This document shows positions 10,896 to 60,733 of a DNA stretch of 64,000 nt, in pieces. The stretch comes from a virus. A program made the translations under genes and the position numbers. How positions within the stretch are numbered: position 1 is the stretch's first letter; each line of letters starts with the position of its first letter. The DNA lies in IMG/VR virus record IMGVR_UViG_3300045012_000235, positions 60,601 to 124,600 of that record. One strand, given 5' to 3'. The notes beneath the pieces are model-generated. The model saw only the letters and a program-made list of their open reading frames with translations. It had not been told where the DNA came from and did no database searches.

Positions 10896-11597
10896 ATGAC
10901 GGTGAGCGAAATCGCTCGAACCGAGATTCGGCAGATTGCCATTCTCGACACAGAAACCACATCGTTGGAGCCACCCCCGGTCGGCAAGATCATCGAGGTG
11001 GCGGTCATGCTCTACGATGTGAAGTTCGCGCAGCCTGTCGCTAGCTTCGCTAGCCTGATTCAGGCCGACTCGAACGAGGCGGAGCCCATCAACGGCATCC
11101 CGGCGGGAATGCTCGGTGCTGCGCGCACGGCAGACTTCGTGTGGCGCGCGGTCCAGTGGCTCATCGAGCCGGCGACCGTCATCATCGCGCATCGCGCTGA
11201 GTTCGATCGGCAGTTTTGTCCAGACCTCGGGAAGCCTTGGATCTGTTCCAAAACCGATATTCGTTGGGGTGATCGGGTACGTGGCGACCATCTTGTTCAG
11301 CTCGCGCTAGGGCTTGGACTCGGGGTCGCGAGCGCACACCGCGCGATGGCCGACGTCGACACGCTCGCGCGTATCCTGACGCGCGTCGCCGAGAAGGGTG
11401 GCGATCTTGAAGCGATGATCGTGCGCGCGATGCGACCAAAGAAGCTCTTCTACGCGCAGGTTTCGTACGAGAGACGACAGATTGCTAAGGATCACGGGTT
11501 TCTTTGGGATGAGGCCAAGCACGGCAAGAACTGGTACCGGTACATGCCGCCCGAGGACACGGGGGAGTTGCCGTTTCCGGTGAGGTTGGTGTCGTGA
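10896..11597 (+). CDS. DnaQ-like 3'-5' exonuclease (DEDD family)
   Basis: 233 residues. ExoI is ILDTETTSL with metal-binding D18 and E20. ExoII lies in the VIIAHRAEFDRQF stretch, and ExoIII is AHRAMADVDTLARIL with its His and Asp. The C-terminal 70 residues (from KKLFYAQVSYERRQ) form an extra domain seen beside exonucleases in other phages. Good ribosome site (GTAGGAGGTG). Likely proofreading or DNA-end trimming; first gene of the plus-strand recombination operon. Confidence 0.85.
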   Translation: MTVSEIARTEIRQIAILDTETTSLEPPPVGKIIEVAVMLYDVKFAQPVASFASLIQADSNEAEPINGIPAGMLGAARTADFVWRAVQWLIEPATVIIAHRAEFDRQFCPDLGKPWICSKTDIRWGDRVRGDHLVQLALGLGLGVASAHRAMADVDTLARILTRVAEKGGDLEAMIVRAMRPKKLFYAQVSYERRQIAKDHGFLWDEAKHGKNWYRYMPPEDTGELPFPVRLVS

Positions 11598-11968
11598 GCA
11601 ACGACCCTGACTTGATGAGACACGGCGGTAATCCAGAATCGATTGAGGCTCACGAATCAATCAAGGATTACAAGCAAAGGGTCAGGCTAGCCATCTATGC
11701 CGTCGCCAGAAGACGGGGGAGTACTGGAATCACTGCGGATGAAGTATCGGCTGAATGGGGATCGAGTCACAATCATGTAGCTCCAAGGATGACGGAGCTG
11801 AAAGCAGCCGGGTTGTTGGTTCCGACTCAAATTCGCAGGAAAACAAGAGCTGGTCGCTGGGCTCGTGTGTTGGTTATCAAGGGCGTGGAGACTTCGGAAG
11901 CCGGTCAGCCGGAGGACGATGGTGATGTACAGCGACTCGTCGCAGAGCATGTGAGTAACCATCGATGA
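11594..11968 (+). CDS. winged-helix protein, 124 aa
   Basis: GTG start overlaps the exonuclease stop. The central part (IYAVARRRGSTGITADEV, then a helix and RMTELKAAGLLVPT) fits a winged helix that binds DNA. Its end overlaps the nuclease gene start (ATGA), making it part of the recombination operon. Confidence 0.6.
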   Translation: MSNDPDLMRHGGNPESIEAHESIKDYKQRVRLAIYAVARRRGSTGITADEVSAEWGSSHNHVAPRMTELKAAGLLVPTQIRRKTRAGRWARVLVIKGVETSEAGQPEDDGDVQRLVAEHVSNHR

Positions 11969-13011
11969 AGGTCTTCGTCTGGGAAACCAAGACAACGAGC
12001 GAAGACATTGGTCCCGGCTCCACCTTCTGGAAGCGAACCACGCTCGATCCGCAGCTCTCGCTCTACATCCCTGCGATTCGAGCGATGGGGTACGACCCCC
12101 ACGGCTGCATTTACGATGCGCTCCGTAAGCCGGCGCAGTCTCCCGGGACCGTTCCGGTGCTCGACGACGACAGGCTCAAGATTGTGGTCGACGCAGCCGG
12201 TCAGCGTGTGCGTACCAAGGACGGCAAGAAATGGCGACAGACCGGCGACACCGAGGCCGGCTACGTACTTCAAACGCGACCCGAAACTCCAGAGGAGTAC
12301 GGCCAGCGCTGCCTAGAAGCCATCGCCGAGAACCCGGACAGGTACTACGCGCGGGGAGTGGTCGTGCGGCTGGAGGCCGACGAGCGAGAGGCGGCGGCCG
12401 ACAACTGGAACACGGCGGGGCAGATGCGGGAAGCGAAGCGACTCAACATCTACCCCAGGAATCCGGATTCGTGTATCTCGTGGTCGCGCGAGTGCGACTA
12501 CTTGAACGTGTGCGCCGGCATGGCGGCGATCGATGATCCTGTACTGTTCCAACACGAGGCGGCGCACGTCGAGCTGGATAACCTGTCGGACGACCTGAGT
12601 CTGCTCACGCAGTCCTCGATGCGGTCGTACCGATCCTGTCCGCGCAAGTTCTACTACCGGTACGTGCTGCGTCAGCGGCCGCTCAAGAAGGCCGAGACAC
12701 TGTCGACCGGCACAAGCATTCACAAAGCGCTCGACGTGTTCCGTCAAACAGGGGGCGATCTCGAGGCCGCCAAGAAAGCGCTCGTGACCGAGGATCTGTT
12801 CGTGCGCGCCAAGGAAGTAGCAATACTGACCGGCTACGCCGCGCGATGGAGCAAACCCACCGGGGTCGTCGCGATCGAGCATCAGTTCGATATCCCGCTC
12901 ATCAACCCCGAGACGGGGGCCGCCAGCCGAACATACAAGCTAGGCGGTAAGGTGGACGCGATCGTGGCCGCAGAGTCGGCTCAGGAACTGTTGAACCCAG
13001 CGACAGGATGA
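11965..13011 (+). CDS. PD-(D/E)XK nuclease with permuted domain order (Cas4/AddB-like, Fe-S type)
   Basis: 348 residues. The start reads MKVFVWETKTTSEDI: the E-x-K catalytic strand (E7, K9), which normally lies mid-protein, is at the N-terminus. The usual C-terminal half follows, ending with cysteines C170, C177 and C183. Only then comes the usual beginning (SLLTQSSMRSYRSCPRKFYYRYV, C225; STGTSIHKALDVF), and the protein ends just after GGKVDAIV, which carries catalytic D331. In ordinary members the order is Cys, H, D, ExK, three Cys. All key residues are present but circularly permuted at the D/ExK hairpin. Probably the recombination exonuclease partner of the Sak4-like ATPase. Start and stop both overlap neighbours, so the frame is not an artefact of start choice. 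Confidence 0.75.
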   Translation: MKVFVWETKTTSEDIGPGSTFWKRTTLDPQLSLYIPAIRAMGYDPHGCIYDALRKPAQSPGTVPVLDDDRLKIVVDAAGQRVRTKDGKKWRQTGDTEAGYVLQTRPETPEEYGQRCLEAIAENPDRYYARGVVVRLEADEREAAADNWNTAGQMREAKRLNIYPRNPDSCISWSRECDYLNVCAGMAAIDDPVLFQHEAAHVELDNLSDDLSLLTQSSMRSYRSCPRKFYYRYVLRQRPLKKAETLSTGTSIHKALDVFRQTGGDLEAAKKALVTEDLFVRAKEVAILTGYAARWSKPTGVVAIEHQFDIPLINPETGAASRTYKLGGKVDAIVAAESAQELLNPATG

Positions 13012-13937
13012 AAACAATGACCATTGATCTGAAACGAATCACCGAAGGCAAGGTTGCGCGCGAGCCGCGTGTTCTCATCTACTCGGCGGACGGCGTAGGC
13101 AAGACCCGGTTCGCTGCCGGCGCTCCAGACCCGTTCTTCATCGACGTCAACCGTGGCAGCCTCCAGTACGACGTGAAGCGGGTCATTCCGGAGACCTGGA
13201 GCGAAGTGATCGAATGGGTGGGTGCCGTAGAGCAGGGTCTCGTCAAATGCAAGACGCTGGTTATCGACTCCATCACCGATCTCGAGTACATGGGAAACGC
13301 TGAGTTCTTCCCCAACACGACCATCGACAAATGGGACGGGGGTTACGGGCGCGGAGAGGGTTACGCGCTCACGCGTTGGCGAGAGCTGCTCGCAGCGCTG
13401 GAGCGCACATGGGCCGCAGGCAAAGCGATCGTTCTTGTCGGGCACATGACCGTGAAACGGTTCGAGGACCCGACGGGCCCAGGGTTCGAGCGCTACGAAG
13501 TTGCCGCCAAACAGAAGCTCGCCGGATCGCTCAGGCAGTGGGTGGACTATGTGCTCTTCGCCAACATCGAGACGGTGCAGCAGAAGGTCGCCGGGGGAGA
13601 CGTCAAGATGGTCACCAACGGCGTGCGCTGGCTGCACACGCAACGCTCTCCCGCGTTCGACGCCAAGAGTCGAGGGACAACGCTCTTTCCCGAGAGGGTG
13701 CTCCTCTCGTGGGAGGAGTTCGCCAAGGCGAGGGCTGCCGATACAGCCAGACTCGCGGAGCTGCAGACCGAGATCGACGCCATGCTCAAGGAGATCGGTG
13801 ACGACAAGCTTGTGGCCGGCGTCAAGGAGTACATGCGTTCGTACCCCAACATGATCGTCGAGGCCCGCAACCGGGTGTCGGCGAGGCTTGAAGAGTTCCG
13901 GGCGACGGCGAAGCCGCCCGTGCAGAAGAGTGCGTAA
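13008..13937 (+). CDS. Sak4-like RecA-fold ATPase (single-strand annealing / recombination)
   Basis: 309 residues. Walker A is YSADGVGKTRFA and Walker B is CKTLVIDSITDLEY. A GHMTVKRFEDP region and a C-terminal coiled helical part follow, matching phage AAA_24/Sak4 ATPases. These promote annealing with a phage SSB and usually lie next to an exonuclease, as here. ATG overlaps the nuclease stop. Confidence 0.8.
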   Translation: MKTMTIDLKRITEGKVAREPRVLIYSADGVGKTRFAAGAPDPFFIDVNRGSLQYDVKRVIPETWSEVIEWVGAVEQGLVKCKTLVIDSITDLEYMGNAEFFPNTTIDKWDGGYGRGEGYALTRWRELLAALERTWAAGKAIVLVGHMTVKRFEDPTGPGFERYEVAAKQKLAGSLRQWVDYVLFANIETVQQKVAGGDVKMVTNGVRWLHTQRSPAFDAKSRGTTLFPERVLLSWEEFAKARAADTARLAELQTEIDAMLKEIGDDKLVAGVKEYMRSYPNMIVEARNRVSARLEEFRATAKPPVQKSA

Positions 13938-13961: not shown

Positions 13962-14441
13962 ATGGTTACCCCCGGAAATTACAAGGCACGCGGCATCAAG
14001 AGCAGCGTGCAGCTCGGCGAGACCGAGCGCGGCAACCTCCAGATCGGAATCGATCTGGACATCAAGAACGGATCGGAGTCGCTCGGGCAGATGACGACGT
14101 TCCTCTACTTCACGCCCGAGGCGGCACCCTACAGCTACGAGCGGCTGCGCGCGCTCGGTTGGAAGGGTCAGGGGCCCGACGACATCGACAACATGGACGG
14201 TATCGACGCCAACGAGGTCGATGTTCGTGTCACGGTGCCAGAGCAGTACAAGGACTCGAGCGGTGCGATCAAGATGGGTCAGAGCAAGGTCGAGATTCAG
14301 ACCGGTGGGGTAGGGAAGGTCACCCTCGCCAAGACGGTTGATGGGGCCACCTTCAAGGCGCGACTCAAGGCGATTGGTGGTGCTAGCGGCGGTGGTGCTC
14401 CGGCGGGTGGTGGTGGTTCTGGGCCGAAGCCGCCCTTCTGA
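13962..14441 (+). CDS. single-stranded DNA-binding protein-like
   Basis: 159 residues, beta-rich core with repeated short strands (GNLQIGIDLDI, TTFLYFTP), then a flexible Gly-rich tail ending GPKPPF. That tail resembles the C-terminal tip through which SSBs recruit partners. It lies between the Sak4-like ATPase and a helicase, as expected for the cognate SSB. A purine-rich ribosome site lies upstream. The family is inferred from architecture and context. Confidence 0.6.
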   Translation: MVTPGNYKARGIKSSVQLGETERGNLQIGIDLDIKNGSESLGQMTTFLYFTPEAAPYSYERLRALGWKGQGPDDIDNMDGIDANEVDVRVTVPEQYKDSSGAIKMGQSKVEIQTGGVGKVTLAKTVDGATFKARLKAIGGASGGGAPAGGGGSGPKPPF

Positions 14442-15781
14442 TGAAGATCGATCTGTCGTCCGACCAGCGCGAGGTCTACACCGCGATCTCGCGCTGGTCG
14501 CTGGGCAAGAGCGGGGGCGGCGTACTTGGGTCGACGCTGACGTGTGGGGGCCTCGCGGGATCTGGCAAGAGCACGCTCATTGGCGTGTTCGCCGCAGAGA
14601 CGAAATTGCTCGTCGCGTACGTCTGCTTTACCGGTCGCGCCGCTTCAAACTTGCGTCGCAAGCTCGAGGCGGCTGACGTTGAGACGACGCGCAAGATGCT
14701 GACCGACGACGAGCGGTCATTGACGGGTCGCTGGGCCCATCTCTTCTACGGTCGGCACGATCCAGAGGAGACGATGCCGTTCTGCGACACGATTCATCGC
14801 CTGCTTTATCGGCCCATCATCGACAGTCGGACCGAGGAGCTTCGTGGCTGGGAACGACGTAGCCAGCTTGATCGCTCGTACGACCTCATCGTGGTGGACG
14901 AGGCGTCCATGATTAGCGACACGGTCCTCGAAGATCTTCGCGCGCACGGCGTGCGGGTTCTTGCGGTCGGCGACCACGGTCAGCTTCCGCCCGTTCGGGG
15001 CAGTAGTTCGCTGATGGTCGCCCCCGATCTGCGGCTCGAGAAGATTCATCGGCAGGCCGAGTCGAGTCCCATCATCCGGATGGCGCATGCGCTGCGCACA
15101 ACGGGTCGGTTCGATCCGGCGCTTGCCGATGGTAACGCGGTGCAGGTGCTGTCGAAGTACGAGTACACGAGGGTGCTGAAAGAGTCGGTGGCTACGGCCT
15201 CGAGCGAGGAGTCGTTGAACGCGCACGGACCGACTGCGCCACTCGACGTCGCGGTCGTCTGTTGGAAGCACGTCACCCGCGTCTCGATCAACCGCACCGT
15301 CCGCGAGATGCTTGGCCACCAGGGCAAGCTGCCGCAGGTAGGGGAGCCGGTCATGGCGCTCCGAAACTACCCGCCGGTCTACAACGGGATGCGAGGCTTG
15401 CTTCAGCGAGACGCGGAACAGTTCTCGGACTCCTGGTGGTTGCTCAACGTGGACATCGACTTCCCAGACGAAGGGGTCAACGTCGAGAATCGAAACGTCT
15501 GCCGCGATCAATTTCATCGGCTGCCGCGCCGGCGCGGTGAGCAGTCGACGTTCGGTTCGGTCGACGAGTTGAAGGAGGCTGGCATCAAGGTTGATTCGAT
15601 GGGTGAGGCGGGCCACCTCTACGACTTCGGCTATGCGATGACCGTCCACAAGTCGCAGGGATCGCAATTCGAGCACGTCGTCGTGTGCGTGGATTGGAAC
15701 GAGGGCGATACCGACGACGCGCGGCGGCTTGCGTACACGGCGGTCACGCGCGCCAGCGGTCGGTTGACGGTGCTGCGTTGA
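14441..15781 (+). CDS. RecD/Dda-type SF1B DNA helicase
   Basis: 446 residues. Motif I is GLAGSGKSTL and motif Ia CFTGRAA; motif II is VVDEASM, III VGDHGQLPPV, IV near LEKIHRQ, V YAMTVHKSQGSQF and VI YTAVTRAS. These identify a 5'-3' SF1B helicase. An insertion between III and V (about 75 residues) resembles the SH3-like element of RecD2. ATG overlaps the SSB-like stop. Likely unwinds or remodels replication and recombination intermediates. Confidence 0.88.
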   Translation: MKIDLSSDQREVYTAISRWSLGKSGGGVLGSTLTCGGLAGSGKSTLIGVFAAETKLLVAYVCFTGRAASNLRRKLEAADVETTRKMLTDDERSLTGRWAHLFYGRHDPEETMPFCDTIHRLLYRPIIDSRTEELRGWERRSQLDRSYDLIVVDEASMISDTVLEDLRAHGVRVLAVGDHGQLPPVRGSSSLMVAPDLRLEKIHRQAESSPIIRMAHALRTTGRFDPALADGNAVQVLSKYEYTRVLKESVATASSEESLNAHGPTAPLDVAVVCWKHVTRVSINRTVREMLGHQGKLPQVGEPVMALRNYPPVYNGMRGLLQRDAEQFSDSWWLLNVDIDFPDEGVNVENRNVCRDQFHRLPRRRGEQSTFGSVDELKEAGIKVDSMGEAGHLYDFGYAMTVHKSQGSQFEHVVVCVDWNEGDTDDARRLAYTAVTRASGRLTVLR

Positions 15782-23262: not shown

Positions 23263-24192
23263 ATGCCGAAAGCATCGCGAGACGCCCTGAACGCAAAGGG
23301 CAAGACGGACGTCTACTACTTCGACCCGGCCGACGTCGTCCTGGTCACCAGCAAGGAGTCGGTGCTCTACGACGAGCGGGTGGACAACGACTACAAGGAG
23401 TCGCTCGTCCTCAACATGATGTACGCCCCGGATCCGGACGGTCCGCCGCAGGGCGTGCTCAAGGTGCTGCTCGGCCGGCGCAACCCCGAGACCGGCAAGG
23501 TCGAGATCATCGACGGCCGGCAGCGCACCAAGGCGGCGCGCGAAGCGAACAAGCGGCTGAAGAAGCAGGGGGGCGAGCCGATCCGGCTCCCGGTGCTGCT
23601 CCGGCGAGCGTCCAGCGATCAGCGCGTGATGGCGATGCTCATCAGCTCGAACGAGCACGCCACCGAGGACTCGCCGCTCGCCAAGGCGAGAAAGGCCCAG
23701 CGCTACATCGACCTCGGGCGCGACGAGAAGGAAGTGGCTGCCCTCTTCGGCATCAGCCCGGCGACCGTGAAGAACCTTCTCGCCCTGCTCGAGGCGCCCG
23801 CGGCGGTCCGGAATGCGGTGGAGAGCGGGAAGATTTCGGTCAGCGACGGCTACCGACTCGCGCGGCTCGAACCGGCGGAGGCCAAGGGGAAGGTCGCGGA
23901 GCTCGTCGAGAAGGCCCCACGGGCGGCGGGCAAGAAGCGGAGCCCAAATGCCAAGAAGGCCCGGGAGATCGTTCAGGGAGCCGACAACACCGCTCGGGCA
24001 AGGGCGGTGATAGAGGCGACAGCCAACATTCTCGACCGATCGGAGAAGACCGAGAACTTGGTGGCGTACGCTATCGCCGATTGGATCGAACGCAACTGGA
24101 ACGAGGTGAACTGGGGCGGGGACCCCAAAACCATTCCGGATCGGATTCGAGCAGGCGATTGGCGTGAGAAGGAGAAGGGAGACGCGGCGTGA
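23263..24192 (+). CDS. ParB/Srx-like protein with helix-turn-helix
   Basis: 309 residues. The N-terminal ParB-like domain ends in IIDGRQRTKAAREAN, the GxxR nucleotide-binding box. The central helix-turn-helix reads EKEVAALFGISPATVKNLLALLEAP, and a helical dimer region follows. In plasmids, ParB proteins bind CTP and segregate DNA; phage relatives may instead regulate or act as nucleases. No parA gene or obvious centromere repeat is nearby, so partition is not proven. Confidence 0.75.
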   Translation: MPKASRDALNAKGKTDVYYFDPADVVLVTSKESVLYDERVDNDYKESLVLNMMYAPDPDGPPQGVLKVLLGRRNPETGKVEIIDGRQRTKAAREANKRLKKQGGEPIRLPVLLRRASSDQRVMAMLISSNEHATEDSPLAKARKAQRYIDLGRDEKEVAALFGISPATVKNLLALLEAPAAVRNAVESGKISVSDGYRLARLEPAEAKGKVAELVEKAPRAAGKKRSPNAKKAREIVQGADNTARARAVIEATANILDRSEKTENLVAYAIADWIERNWNEVNWGGDPKTIPDRIRAGDWREKEKGDAA

Positions 24193-26080: not shown

Positions 26081-26373
26081 GCATCAAGCCAGGGAACCTC
26101 GTCTTCAAGTCTGGGGCCGGCGGGACGCCGAAAGGAGCCTCCATACCCGACGCAGCCGGAGACATCATCTTCATGCACGCCGACAAGGAGTGGATGCGGA
26201 TCAAGGAGAACGGTTCGGTGATTATCCGCGACGCGGTCTTGTTCAATGATGCCGATGCGTACAAGCGTTTCAAGGCATGGCTCCTGGAGGCTACCGTTTG
26301 CTTCGAGGAGAAGACGGAAAATAAGGCGATTGACGCGGTCATCAGCGCGCAGGCGGGAAAGAATTTGTCGTGA
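26077..26373 (+). CDS. hypothetical protein, 98 aa
   Basis: ATG overlaps the previous stop and its stop overlaps the ATPase GTG. Beta-rich middle (DIIFMHADKEWMRIKENGSV) resembles small phage proteins of unknown role. Confidence 0.5.
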   Translation: MSIKPGNLVFKSGAGGTPKGASIPDAAGDIIFMHADKEWMRIKENGSVIIRDAVLFNDADAYKRFKAWLLEATVCFEEKTENKAIDAVISAQAGKNLS

Positions 26374-28142
26374 AGCTGCGACTTTCTCCCGACGTCACGC
26401 TCCCGACGGATGCCGTCACGCAAACGTTCGCCGTGCTCGGCAAGCGTGGCTCGGGCAAAACGAACACCGCCAGCGTGCTCGCCGAGCAGCTCATCGAGGC
26501 AGGGCTCCCCGTCGTGTACGTGGATCCCATCGGAGTGACGTGGGGGCTCCGGCACTCGCGCGACGGCAAGTCGCCGGGGCTGCCTGTCATCATCCTTGGT
26601 GGTGAGCACGCAGACGTACCGCTCGAGGAGACGGGCGGCGCGGTCATCGCCGACTTTGTGATTGAGCACCGGCAACCGGTGGTGCTCGACCTCGGTCTCT
26701 TCTCGAAGGGCGCGCAGCGGCGGTTCATGGTGGATTTCGCAGAGCGGCTCTACTTGAAGAACCGCGATGCGCTGCACGTCATGCTCGACGAATGCGACAC
26801 TTTTGTGCCCCAGCGCATCGACCACGGTGGAGAGCGACTCGTGGGCGCCATCAACGATCTCGTGAGAAAGGGTCGCGCGCGTGGGCTCGGCGTCACGCTC
26901 ATTAGTCAGCGGCCGGCACTCGTCTCGAAGGATGTTCTCACGCAGGTTGAGACACTCATTGCACATCGGATGACCGGACCGCAGGATCGCGACGCCATCG
27001 AGCGGTGGATCGAGCACAACGCCGATCGAGACGGTACCGATGTGTTGGCATCGCTTCAGACGCTTGGTGACGGGGACGCGTGGGTCTGGAGCCCGAGCTG
27101 GCTCAAGAAGATGGTCCGCACGCACATCAACCTGCGAGAGACGTTCGACTCGTCGGCGACGCCGAAGGCGGGTGCTCGAGTGACCGCGCCAAAGCACGCG
27201 GCCGAGGTGGACCTGGGCGAGCTCCGTGACAAGCTCGCGGCGACCATCGAGAAGGCGAAGGCCGACGATCCGAGGGTGCTACGGGGACGTGTTCAGGAAT
27301 TGGAGAAGCAGTTGAAGCGCGCGTTCGCCGCTAGCGAGGCGCCAGCCTTCTCCAAGACCGTGGAGGTCCCGATACTGTCGAAAGAGCAGGTGAGGCTGCT
27401 AGAAGACCTGCGCGGTGAAGTGGTAGGAATCCGCGCAGGTGCCATCGTCAAGCTCGACGATCGAGTCAGCGAGATGGTTCGGTTCTACGGAGACCTCAAG
27501 ACCGGTATGCTGGAGATGGCCGATCGGGTGGAAAAGCTGGTCGCGAAGCTCAGCGTCGAGGGGCACGTCGTCAACGCCTACGACCTCCGGTGGAGCAAGA
27601 AGAATCGGAAGGATCTCAAACCGCCACCGGCAGTAACTAACGGTGCAGCACATCGCCCGGTTGCCGCCGGGTCCGGCGAGCCGATGTCCGGAGGTCGCCG
27701 CCGCATTCTGCTCGCGCTTGCGCGCCACGGGGCATGCAGCAAGGGCAAGCTCGCCGTCCTGACGCGCTACGCCTCCAATGGCGGAGGGTTCAACAACAAC
27801 CTGAGTGCGCTCCGGACGGCGGGTCATATCGCTGGCAACGACCCGCTCGAGATCACCGACGACGGTTTCCGTGTGCTCGGTCGCTTTGATCCGTTGCCCG
27901 AGGATGCCGACGCTCTTTTCACGGAATGGATGCAGCACCCCGAACTGAATAGGTCGCACCGTGAAATCATGCGGACGCTCAAGGGATCGCTTGCGCCCAT
28001 GACAAAGGAAGAAATCGCCAGGCTCTGCGATCCGCCGTACGAGCCGGGAGGCGGCGGTTTCAACAACGCGCTCTCGCGCCTCCGCACGCTCGGCGTCATC
28101 GAGGGCAAGGGCGACATTCGGCTTGCGGAGCAGCTCCGATGA
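26370..28142 (+). CDS. HerA/DUF87-type ATPase with duplicated C-terminal winged helix
   Basis: 590 residues. P-loop VLGKRGSGKTNTAS (about 22-35), DPIGVTWG after the second strand, Walker B VMLDECDTFV, and an ISQRP arginine-finger region as in HerA/FtsK ATPases. The tail holds two repeats containing GGGFNNxLSxLRTxGxI, apparently paired winged helices. HerA-fold ATPases pump or remodel DNA, and some tailless viruses use them for genome packaging. With no terminase visible, such a role is possible but unproven; a recombination role is equally likely. Confidence 0.75.
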   Translation: MKLRLSPDVTLPTDAVTQTFAVLGKRGSGKTNTASVLAEQLIEAGLPVVYVDPIGVTWGLRHSRDGKSPGLPVIILGGEHADVPLEETGGAVIADFVIEHRQPVVLDLGLFSKGAQRRFMVDFAERLYLKNRDALHVMLDECDTFVPQRIDHGGERLVGAINDLVRKGRARGLGVTLISQRPALVSKDVLTQVETLIAHRMTGPQDRDAIERWIEHNADRDGTDVLASLQTLGDGDAWVWSPSWLKKMVRTHINLRETFDSSATPKAGARVTAPKHAAEVDLGELRDKLAATIEKAKADDPRVLRGRVQELEKQLKRAFAASEAPAFSKTVEVPILSKEQVRLLEDLRGEVVGIRAGAIVKLDDRVSEMVRFYGDLKTGMLEMADRVEKLVAKLSVEGHVVNAYDLRWSKKNRKDLKPPPAVTNGAAHRPVAAGSGEPMSGGRRRILLALARHGACSKGKLAVLTRYASNGGGFNNNLSALRTAGHIAGNDPLEITDDGFRVLGRFDPLPEDADALFTEWMQHPELNRSHREIMRTLKGSLAPMTKEEIARLCDPPYEPGGGGFNNALSRLRTLGVIEGKGDIRLAEQLR

Positions 28143-29244: not shown

Positions 29245-30132
29245 ATGGCGTACGAAGCGAAGATCATCCTGGACAGCGTGGGGCCGAACGGTGCACGGCT
29301 GACGACGTTCGAGCTCGAGTACCCACGCATCGTACATTCCGAGTTACTCACGCACCGAATGTTTTCGCGCAATAGCGCCTCCTCCCGCGCGATCCCGACC
29401 GAGAAGCTCCTCGGCCGGATCGAAGAGGATCCGATGCTGCCGGTTTGGTGGGGGAAAAATCAGGCAGGGATGGCTGCTCGCGAAAGCTTGGAAGGAGATG
29501 CGCTCGACAAAGCGAAGCGGCTCTGGCTCGAGGCCACCATGAGCGGCGTTCGATACGCGCGCGAGCTGGGTGCGGTCGGGCTGCACAAGCAGGTCGCCAA
29601 CCGACCTGCCGAACTCGGCATGTTCATCACCGTCGTTTGCACCGCGACAGAATGGGGCAATTTCTTTGGGCTTCGTGACCACGCGGCCGCGCAGCCGGAG
29701 CTGGCTTACGTCGCTCATCAAGCGCATCGTCTCTATCGGGAGAGCCAACCAAGAGAGCTCAAATCGAGACAGTGGCACTTGCCGTACGTGACCGGATTCG
29801 ACGAAGAAGCTCTGCTCGCGTCGGATCACGGCGAGGACGCAATGTGCTGCATCAGCATCGGTCGATGTGCTGCCGTCAGCTACCTGAACCAGGACAAGCG
29901 TGATCCGCCGGCGGACCTGGCGCGTGCCGACAAGCTCGCGGCGGCAGGCCACATGAGCCCCTTCGAGCACGTGGCGCAGGCGATTACCGAAGAGGAGTGG
30001 GTGCTTTACGGCACCGAACTCGGCGCACGTTGGGTGGATTGCGCAGTCCCGGTGGGCAACCTGTGGGGCTGGCGCCAATACCGCAAAGAGCTCAAGAACG
30101 AGCACAACTTCTCGAAGATTGGAGCCGCGTAA
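29245..30132 (+). CDS. thyX: flavin-dependent thymidylate synthase
   Basis: 295 residues. The ThyX signature RHRxxSxNxxSxR appears as LTHRMFSRNSASSRA; C-terminal HMSPFEHVAQ and a conserved WGNFFGLR region agree. ThyX methylates dUMP to dTMP using methylene-tetrahydrofolate and FAD/NADPH. Common in phages for dTTP supply. It directly abuts the upstream stop. Confidence 0.9.
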   Translation: MAYEAKIILDSVGPNGARLTTFELEYPRIVHSELLTHRMFSRNSASSRAIPTEKLLGRIEEDPMLPVWWGKNQAGMAARESLEGDALDKAKRLWLEATMSGVRYARELGAVGLHKQVANRPAELGMFITVVCTATEWGNFFGLRDHAAAQPELAYVAHQAHRLYRESQPRELKSRQWHLPYVTGFDEEALLASDHGEDAMCCISIGRCAAVSYLNQDKRDPPADLARADKLAAAGHMSPFEHVAQAITEEEWVLYGTELGARWVDCAVPVGNLWGWRQYRKELKNEHNFSKIGAA

Positions 30133-59449: not shown

Positions 59450-60733
59450 TTAGGCCGCGTGGCTCTTCATCATGCTCGGGTACCTTTCCGAGCAGTACGC
59501 CTTCCAGCCGCCGGGCATCTCCCAGCCCTTGATCTTGATGCCGAGCTTGAAGATGCCGCCCTTGAAGATCTGGCGGTTGACGTTGACCGACTGCGAGACG
59601 AGCGCCGGAGCCGAATCGAGCGTCTGCTCCAGCATGACCGACGGTGCGAGGGCGACCGTGGTGGTGACGTCGCTGACGTTGACGTCCGGCACGACGTTCG
59701 TTCCGAACGGCTCGTTGTCGATCGTCATCGCCTCGATCATCTGCGCCTGGTGCACGGCGTCCTGCGCGATGAAGATCATCCCGATGGGGATGCCGCGCTC
59801 GAGGAAGCAGGGCGACTCGACGGGGCGGTACATCTGGCCCCGGCAACCGTACCCCTGCCACCGGAGACCGCCCCAGGTGACCGGCGCGAGGTCGAAGTCG
59901 CGCGTCGCGTGGAAGACGCCGTAGTTGTCACCGGTGACGAGCGGGAACGCTCCCGTCACGCTGCCGACCCGCCGGAAGTTGACGGGCAGGAAGATCGTCG
60001 CGGAGTCCTTCGCGCGGTACTGCGCGTTGACCAGGGCGACGAACTCGACGATGGGCAGCTCGGACGTGCCGCTCGCTTCGGCGTCCGCGAAGGAACCGAA
60101 GTACGAGATGTCGGCCGCGAGCTCGTTGAGCACGAGTTCGCGCTGGCTCGTCTTCCACTGGAACTGGTACGCGTTGATGAAGTTCCAGCCTGCGCGCCAG
60201 GTCGCCGCACCCCATTCGAAGACGGCGGGAGTGATGACCTGATCGGCCGCTGCGGGCACGACATCGGTACCCATCGCGCCGTTGTTGAGGTCATTGGTCG
60301 TGTACACGTCGGGCGACGGCGGGGGCGCAACGGTGTTCGCCGGCGCCGTCCAGGCGTTGCCGATCGTGGAGAACGACGACGGCTCGCAGAAGACGTGCAC
60401 GCCGATGCCCTGCGCGAGGATGTCCGTCTGCAGGATGCCGTTGATGAGGAACGTGCTGTCGATGCTCGCGACGCCGGGGACCGCGGACGAACCCGAGAGC
60501 GGGTTGACCGTGTCGCCGAACGTTGTCTGCGCTTCCTCCGCCGACAGGGGGAGCGGAACCGTCCAGACCACTTCCTCGACCACGGGGACGTTTCCGAACC
60601 CGCAGCGCAGGCACTTCTCCGCGGCCTTCTCGTCGCCGGGCGGAGCGCCCAGGCCGAAGGGTACGCGCATCACCTTCTCGCGCGACTCGCCGCCGTACCG
60701 GATGGACTTCTTGTTCAGGAGATTCTTGGCCAT
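59450..60733 (-). CDS. probable major capsid protein, 427 aa
   Basis: ATG with GAAAGGGAAACG upstream. Mostly beta strands with long loops, a CLRCG pair near residue 41, and moderate Ala/Val content. Size, central position in the virion block and strong ribosome site suggest the main coat protein. I do not recognise an HK97 signature; a jelly-roll fold is possible. Structure prediction would settle it. Confidence 0.45.
   Translation of the reverse strand: MAKNLLNKKSIRYGGESREKVMRVPFGLGAPPGDEKAAEKCLRCGFGNVPVVEEVVWTVPLPLSAEEAQTTFGDTVNPLSGSSAVPGVASIDSTFLINGILQTDILAQGIGVHVFCEPSSFSTIGNAWTAPANTVAPPPSPDVYTTNDLNNGAMGTDVVPAAADQVITPAVFEWGAATWRAGWNFINAYQFQWKTSQRELVLNELAADISYFGSFADAEASGTSELPIVEFVALVNAQYRAKDSATIFLPVNFRRVGSVTGAFPLVTGDNYGVFHATRDFDLAPVTWGGLRWQGYGCRGQMYRPVESPCFLERGIPIGMIFIAQDAVHQAQMIEAMTIDNEPFGTNVVPDVNVSDVTTTVALAPSVMLEQTLDSAPALVSQSVNVNRQIFKGGIFKLGIKIKGWEMPGGWKAYCSERYPSMMKSHAA

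Follow-up and report, generated by a model that had tools for sequence, protein, structure and literature searches.

How is a nuclease to be read whose conserved motifs all stand in one chain, with the usual last part placed first? The question is raised by the ORF at 11965-13011 (+ strand) of the window, i.e. the whole stretch of 64,000 nucleotides analysed here (IMG/VR record IMGVR_UViG_3300045012_000235, positions 60,601 to 124,600). This ORF runs uninterrupted from ATG to TGA and encodes 348 aa. Its motifs follow each other as ExK, QxxxY, three Cys, Cys, H and D, and not in the collinear order Cys-H-D-ExK-3Cys. A first-pass annotation, made from the letters alone, had proposed a circularly permuted PD-(D/E)XK Fe-S nuclease, and the residues that it named (E7, K9, C170, C177, C183, C225 and D331) can all be read off the translation in their places. 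Its "H segment" corresponds to H253, while D331, described as lying at the very end, is 17 residues short of the C-terminus, so that this description is roughly right. For comparison between orders we divide the domain into module A (the Cys and the H), module B (up to the D) and module C (ExK to the third Cys). The gene then consists of the following parts:

11965..13011, + strand: permuted Fe-S PD-(D/E)XK nuclease, order C-A-B, 348 aa (Pfam, PHROG and unpermuted-only profiles, alignment, model with pLDDT 94)
11965..12513, + strand: module C, the natural C-terminal half, residues 1-183, with the ExK strand, QxxxY and three Cys (unpermuted-only profile positions 125-281 on residues 6-183)
11983..11991, + strand: catalytic E7-T-K9, RecB motif III (invariant in the same-order alignment; K in all three orders)
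12052..12066, + strand: Q30-L-S-L-Y34, the QhXXY motif, intact and behind ExK (Q and Y in every row having the column)
12472..12513, + strand: three predicted cluster cysteines, C170, C177 and C183 (alignment conservation)
12514..12603, + strand: fusion linker, residues 184-213, from the natural C-tail (HxEL) to the natural N-start (LLTxS) (linker and tail lengths)
12604..12768, + strand: module A, the natural N-terminus, with C225 and motif I H253 (module profile, conservation)
12769..12975, + strand: module B, strands up to the catalytic D331, RecB motif II, G-K-V-D (module profile, conservation)

The motif set itself is that of the RecB/AddB/Cas4-type enzymes, with H253 (I), D331 (II), E7/K9 (III) and Q30/Y34 (QhXXY) all in one chain. 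The four cysteines also follow the pattern of the Fe-S nucleases, with C225 near motif I and C170/C177/C183 after QhXXY, and would form a putative cluster. In Cas4, motifs I, II, III and QhXXY together with one N-terminal and three C-terminal cysteines define a RecB-like Fe-S nuclease that is a 5'-3' ssDNA exonuclease (PMC4176176, PMC3466216), and the QhXXY motif is essential in the Cas4 protein Pcal_0546 (PMC4176176).

Profile searches clearly reveal the rotation. The Pfam family PDDEXK_1 (PF12705) matches only residues 214-334, at profile positions 2-132 of 247, so that the C-terminal end of the protein carries the N-terminal half of the profile. The score is 51.9 bits against a curated cut-off of 22, although only half of the profile is covered, and the N-terminal half of phrog_1218 is matched to the C-terminal end likewise. 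As the order is cyclically rotated, the protein is a permuted homologue of the PF12705/phrog_1218 family and not an ordinary member. A profile built from unpermuted relatives only aligns with its halves swapped: positions 125-281 on residues 6-183 (200 bits) and positions 1-128 on residues 214-337 (109 bits). When the protein is doubled, the same profile finds a single unbroken domain, in which residues 214-531 cover positions 1-281 (299 bits). Two swapped segments in the single sequence and one full domain in the doubled copy are the standard signature of a circular permutation, and the result is far beyond chance. The permutation proposed in the first-pass annotation is thus supported, and so is the cut that it placed at the hairpin between the catalytic D and ExK strands, as the permuted chain begins and ends exactly where a short turn links the D and ExK strands of the unpermuted relatives (between the profile ends its median length is 11 residues, and it is never shorter than 5).

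The record that contains the window is that of an environmental virus, and a misjoined contig could in principle swap the halves of an ordinary nuclease gene. However, a search of all fetched loci with module profiles found 19 distinct ORFs of the order C-A-B on separate IMG/VR contigs from many different samples; fragments without a whole module, e.g. L265 and L266, are left out of this count. These are the same-order relatives that the first-pass annotation had proposed to look for, and because they are independent of each other, the misassembly it had warned of can be set aside. The close same-order group is about 70-76% identical (71-76% for the 11 aligned relatives), the gene is a single intact ORF under purifying selection, and another rotation occurs in isolated phage genomes. 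We therefore regard an assembly artefact as practically negligible.

This other rotation, B-C-A, was found by searching with the window protein and comprises 32 distinct ORFs, in which the chain is cut after the motif-I helix and before the helix that follows. The first-pass annotation, with no relatives for comparison, could not have noticed this second cut point. The usual order A-B-C is found in 59 distinct ORFs, and thus every cyclic order of the three modules exists. B-C-A nucleases are encoded by isolated, complete, Illumina-sequenced Tunturiibacter phages (Tunturi_1 gp59 and Tunturi_2 gp56, both annotated "exonuclease" only). Well-annotated "Cas4 family" or "RecB-like" exonucleases of outgroup phages have the usual order, as do Cas4 and AddB, and we therefore take A-B-C as ancestral. 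The nuclease gene was not found in a search of bacterial and archaeal genomes. One 94-kb contig, IMGVR_UViG_3300020229_000001, carries two B-C-A nuclease genes that differ from each other and both precede a Sak4 gene (L036 at ~83-92 kb, L041 at ~20-29 kb), and looks like either a case of paralogy or a chimeric contig. In the C-A-B gene of L012 (5001-6050) the middle segment (KATP...GKLYANQR..DET) resembles that of the short usual-order genes, an apparent recombination within the gene.

The catalytic and cysteine residues are conserved across the orders (52 usual-order, 23 B-C-A and 15 C-A-B aligned rows). The named residues and H253 are invariant across the 11 aligned same-order relatives, and no ingroup row having the column departs from C225, D331, K9, Q30, Y34, C177 or C183. 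H253 and C170 show one exception each, in a usual-order row, and three B-C-A rows have D in place of E7. Within the C-A-B clade the dN/dS ratio is 0.10-0.21 against eight relatives (simple counting, with synonymous sites near saturation for some), i.e. the gene is under purifying selection. The joint between the old C-tail and the old N-start measures 29-33 aa in the B-C-A genes; in the C-A-B genes it measures 24-44 aa (median 35). Genes of the order A-B-C continue for 22 aa or more beyond their last Cys, with a median of 29 aa. As joint and natural tail are similar in length, the natural ends were joined with little gained or lost.

A structure was predicted with AlphaFold2; the alignment had 104 rows, and its unpermuted and B-C-A relatives had been cut into collinearly aligning pieces. 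The model is a confident single fold (pLDDT 94.1, pTM 0.89); from the 11 full-length same-order rows alone the prediction was poor (pLDDT 51). Both the strand carrying E7 and K9 (residues 2-11) and the strand carrying D331 (residues 320-336) are long. The intact fold expected by the first-pass annotation is in agreement with this whole-chain model, and the active site should close with D331 beside E7/K9, as judged from homology and the confidence of the model.

The two segments are joined by a linker whose residues 201-210 have a mean pLDDT of 56 and are flexible, and a domain-swapped assembly would be compatible with the monomer prediction. The protein could then be a fusion of half-nucleases, active only as a domain-swapped dimer or together with a half encoded elsewhere. 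Yet all motifs lie within one chain, a search of the whole record revealed no second copy, no locus has split or duplicated modules, and the monomer model is confident throughout. We consider such half-nucleases quite improbable.

Instead, we suggest that the product of the ORF is very probably a RecB/AddB/Cas4-type Fe-S PD-(D/E)XK exonuclease that is circularly permuted but intact, under selection and of normal fold, and that would most likely resect ends together with Sak4 and a probable SSB. The natural ends are joined by the linker of ~30 residues, and new ends were opened in the hairpin that connects the catalytic D strand to the ExK strand, at its tip. The chain should then close into the normal fold, in which D331, E7, K9 and H253 would bind metal at one site and C225 would form one Fe-S "staple" with C170/C177/C183.

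The proposed role comes from these motifs and from the neighbouring genes, all on the same strand:

10896..11597, + strand: DnaQ-like exonuclease (RNase_T E 5e-10, phrog_192 E 3e-23)
11594..11968, + strand: small protein (phrog_1123, function unknown), immediately upstream and overlapping the nuclease start (PHROG match)
13008..13937, + strand: Sak4-like single-strand annealing protein, its start overlapping the nuclease stop (phrog_124 E 5e-38; ATGA seen directly)
13962..14441, + strand: probable SSB partner, no family match (position, C-terminal PPF tip, SSB at the same place in Tunturi_1/2)
14441..15781, + strand: Dda-like helicase (phrog_325 E 2e-65)

Whichever of the three orders it has, the nuclease lies just upstream of Sak4 in almost every locus, and an annotated SSB gene follows in Tunturi_1/2. 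An exonuclease gene thus stands beside an annealing-protein gene, as in a two-component recombination module. In most relatives the two genes adjoin each other, but in L008 and L009 they are ~2.7-2.8 kb apart, with other sequence in between. In Cas4 and AddB enzymes such motifs go together with an Fe-S cluster and 5'-3' exonuclease activity (PMC3466216, PMC4176176), and Sak4 of HK620 anneals ssDNA with its SSB (PMC5928155). From motifs and synteny, the most likely role of the nuclease would be to resect the ends of phage DNA in the 5'-3' direction, leaving 3' single strands that Sak4 and the SSB would then anneal in recombination and replication. The window is a phage genome, as it also encodes a ParB-like protein (23263-24192), a terminase large subunit (26370-28142) and a thymidylate synthase (29245-30132). 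In its right third there are many large ORFs without a PHROG match.

The common motif set and a weak local likeness to TIGR00372 (cas4) could instead hint at a CRISPR-type Cas4 for spacer handling or immune interference. However, the 20.5 bits of this match are far under the cas4 cut-off of 65, and in place of a cas gene context the neighbours Sak4, helicase and DnaQ-like exonuclease are recombination and replication genes. CRISPR Cas4 identity was rejected on both counts, and such a function is highly improbable.

How often the permutation has occurred was studied with trees of rectified sequences and AU tests of constrained clades. In the nuclease trees both rotations nest among usual-order genes, which separate them. 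A single permuted clade is rejected when all nucleases are included (p 0.0008), and the adjacent Sak4 rejects it too (p 0.007). It is not rejected by the nuclease alone in the first sample (p 0.32), by the first-sample nuclease and Sak4 together (p 0.07), or when L166, L176 and L191 are left out (p 0.13), and trees of modules A+B or C alone do not resolve the number of permutations. From these trees, at least two permutations have probably occurred independently. Alternatively, a tandem duplicate fused in a common ancestor could have been cut back in different ways by two lineages and so have given both rotations; the kind of joint (C-tail to N-start) and the similar linker length in both rotations, together with the tests in which a single clade was not rejected, would fit this. 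Against it stand the usual-order lineages between the rotations, the two rejections above and the tandem duplicate itself, which was looked for and not found. A single origin of this kind therefore seems rather unlikely.

The C-A-B order might itself have arisen more than once. L166 and L176 are C-A-B, yet their nucleases fall among usual-order genes, and a single C-A-B clade is rejected (nuclease p 0.005). The Sak4 tree, from which L176 was left out as its Sak4 match is too short, places L166 with the other C-A-B phages (100/99), so that a third permutation and an exchange of gene pieces are equally likely. Both genes (L166, 2635-4230; L176, 2944-4116) group with the short usual-order genes in sequence, and module C of each is interrupted midway by an additional Cys-rich insertion (CxxCKKK). 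It can tentatively be speculated, although we find it somewhat doubtful, that a series of at least three events took place beside Sak4, B-C-A once and C-A-B twice, the second time in L166/L176. The active site would have been kept always, and the rearrangements possibly made via the recombination module's own tandem duplications in concatemeric phage DNA; all three orders do coexist.

Permutation by duplication is known (PMC3320104) and predicts tandem or half-trimmed intermediates, while fission and fusion predict split genes. Tandem duplicates, split genes and leftover half-copies were sought in all loci (>100 ORFs), and none was found. The origin suggested in the first-pass annotation, a tandem duplication that later lost its outer halves, fits the in-frame joint of the natural ends (linker of 24-44 aa against a tail of at least 22), but an intermediate is missing from the >100 ORFs. 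The tandem-duplication route is plausible, and we propose that the clean end-to-end joint and the unchanged gene position favour a tandem duplication in place with later trimming.

Among known systems, the phage exonucleases of PHROG 1218/PF12705 are clear homologues, with all motifs, the Fe-S cysteines and a place near Sak4/RecA-like and SSB genes in common. However, the outgroup members have the usual order Cys-H-D-ExK-3Cys, whereas in the window protein this order is rotated and the new ends lie in the hairpin between D and ExK. Tunturi_1 gp59 and Tunturi_2 gp56 belong to the same family, adjoin Sak4 and SSB and are likewise permuted, but cut elsewhere (B-C-A and not C-A-B). The "iron staple" nucleases, i.e. 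the AddB nuclease domain and Cas4 (Sso0001, Pcal_0546), share motifs I-III, QhXXY and the 1 + 3 cysteines (PMC3466216, PMC4176176), but are unpermuted and differ in chain order and termini. The same kind of rearrangement is seen in the unrelated folds of permuted DNA methyltransferases, which also exist in several orders, and of saposin/swaposin (PMC3320104). There duplicated intermediates are documented, while none was found for the phage nuclease.

The nuclease family is thus already known, and for its circular permutation with two cut points we found no earlier report. Our literature search revealed no permuted PD-(D/E)XK or Cas4-like nuclease, while permuted members of other branches of the superfamily may have been mentioned. 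To our knowledge, natural circular permutation within a single enzyme domain is uncommon, and one family with all three orders at the same genomic spot is rarer. This is an unusually clear natural case, and it offers a natural test of how freely the ends of an enzyme can move, of duplication against fission models, and of whether an Fe-S "staple" tying both halves makes a fold tolerant of new ends.

Such enzymes are under-called where annotation relies on motif order or where structures are searched sequentially. Pfam and PHROGs match pieces only, a profile search of PDB sequences gave no match, and Foldseek gave no convincing PDB match for a confident model of a well-known fold (none with E <= 0.001; AddAB and RecE at rank 4-5 are at noise level), as expected since it aligns in sequence order only. 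Against the viral library BFVD, the best Foldseek matches are PD-(D/E)XK nucleases, mostly over about half of the chain (best TM 0.50). Two BFVD entries from outside the window, A0A6J5NSY1 and A0A516LBA7, align to the permuted model in sequence order over ~305-361 columns (TM 0.43-0.51), and from these structural alignments they may also be permuted nucleases.
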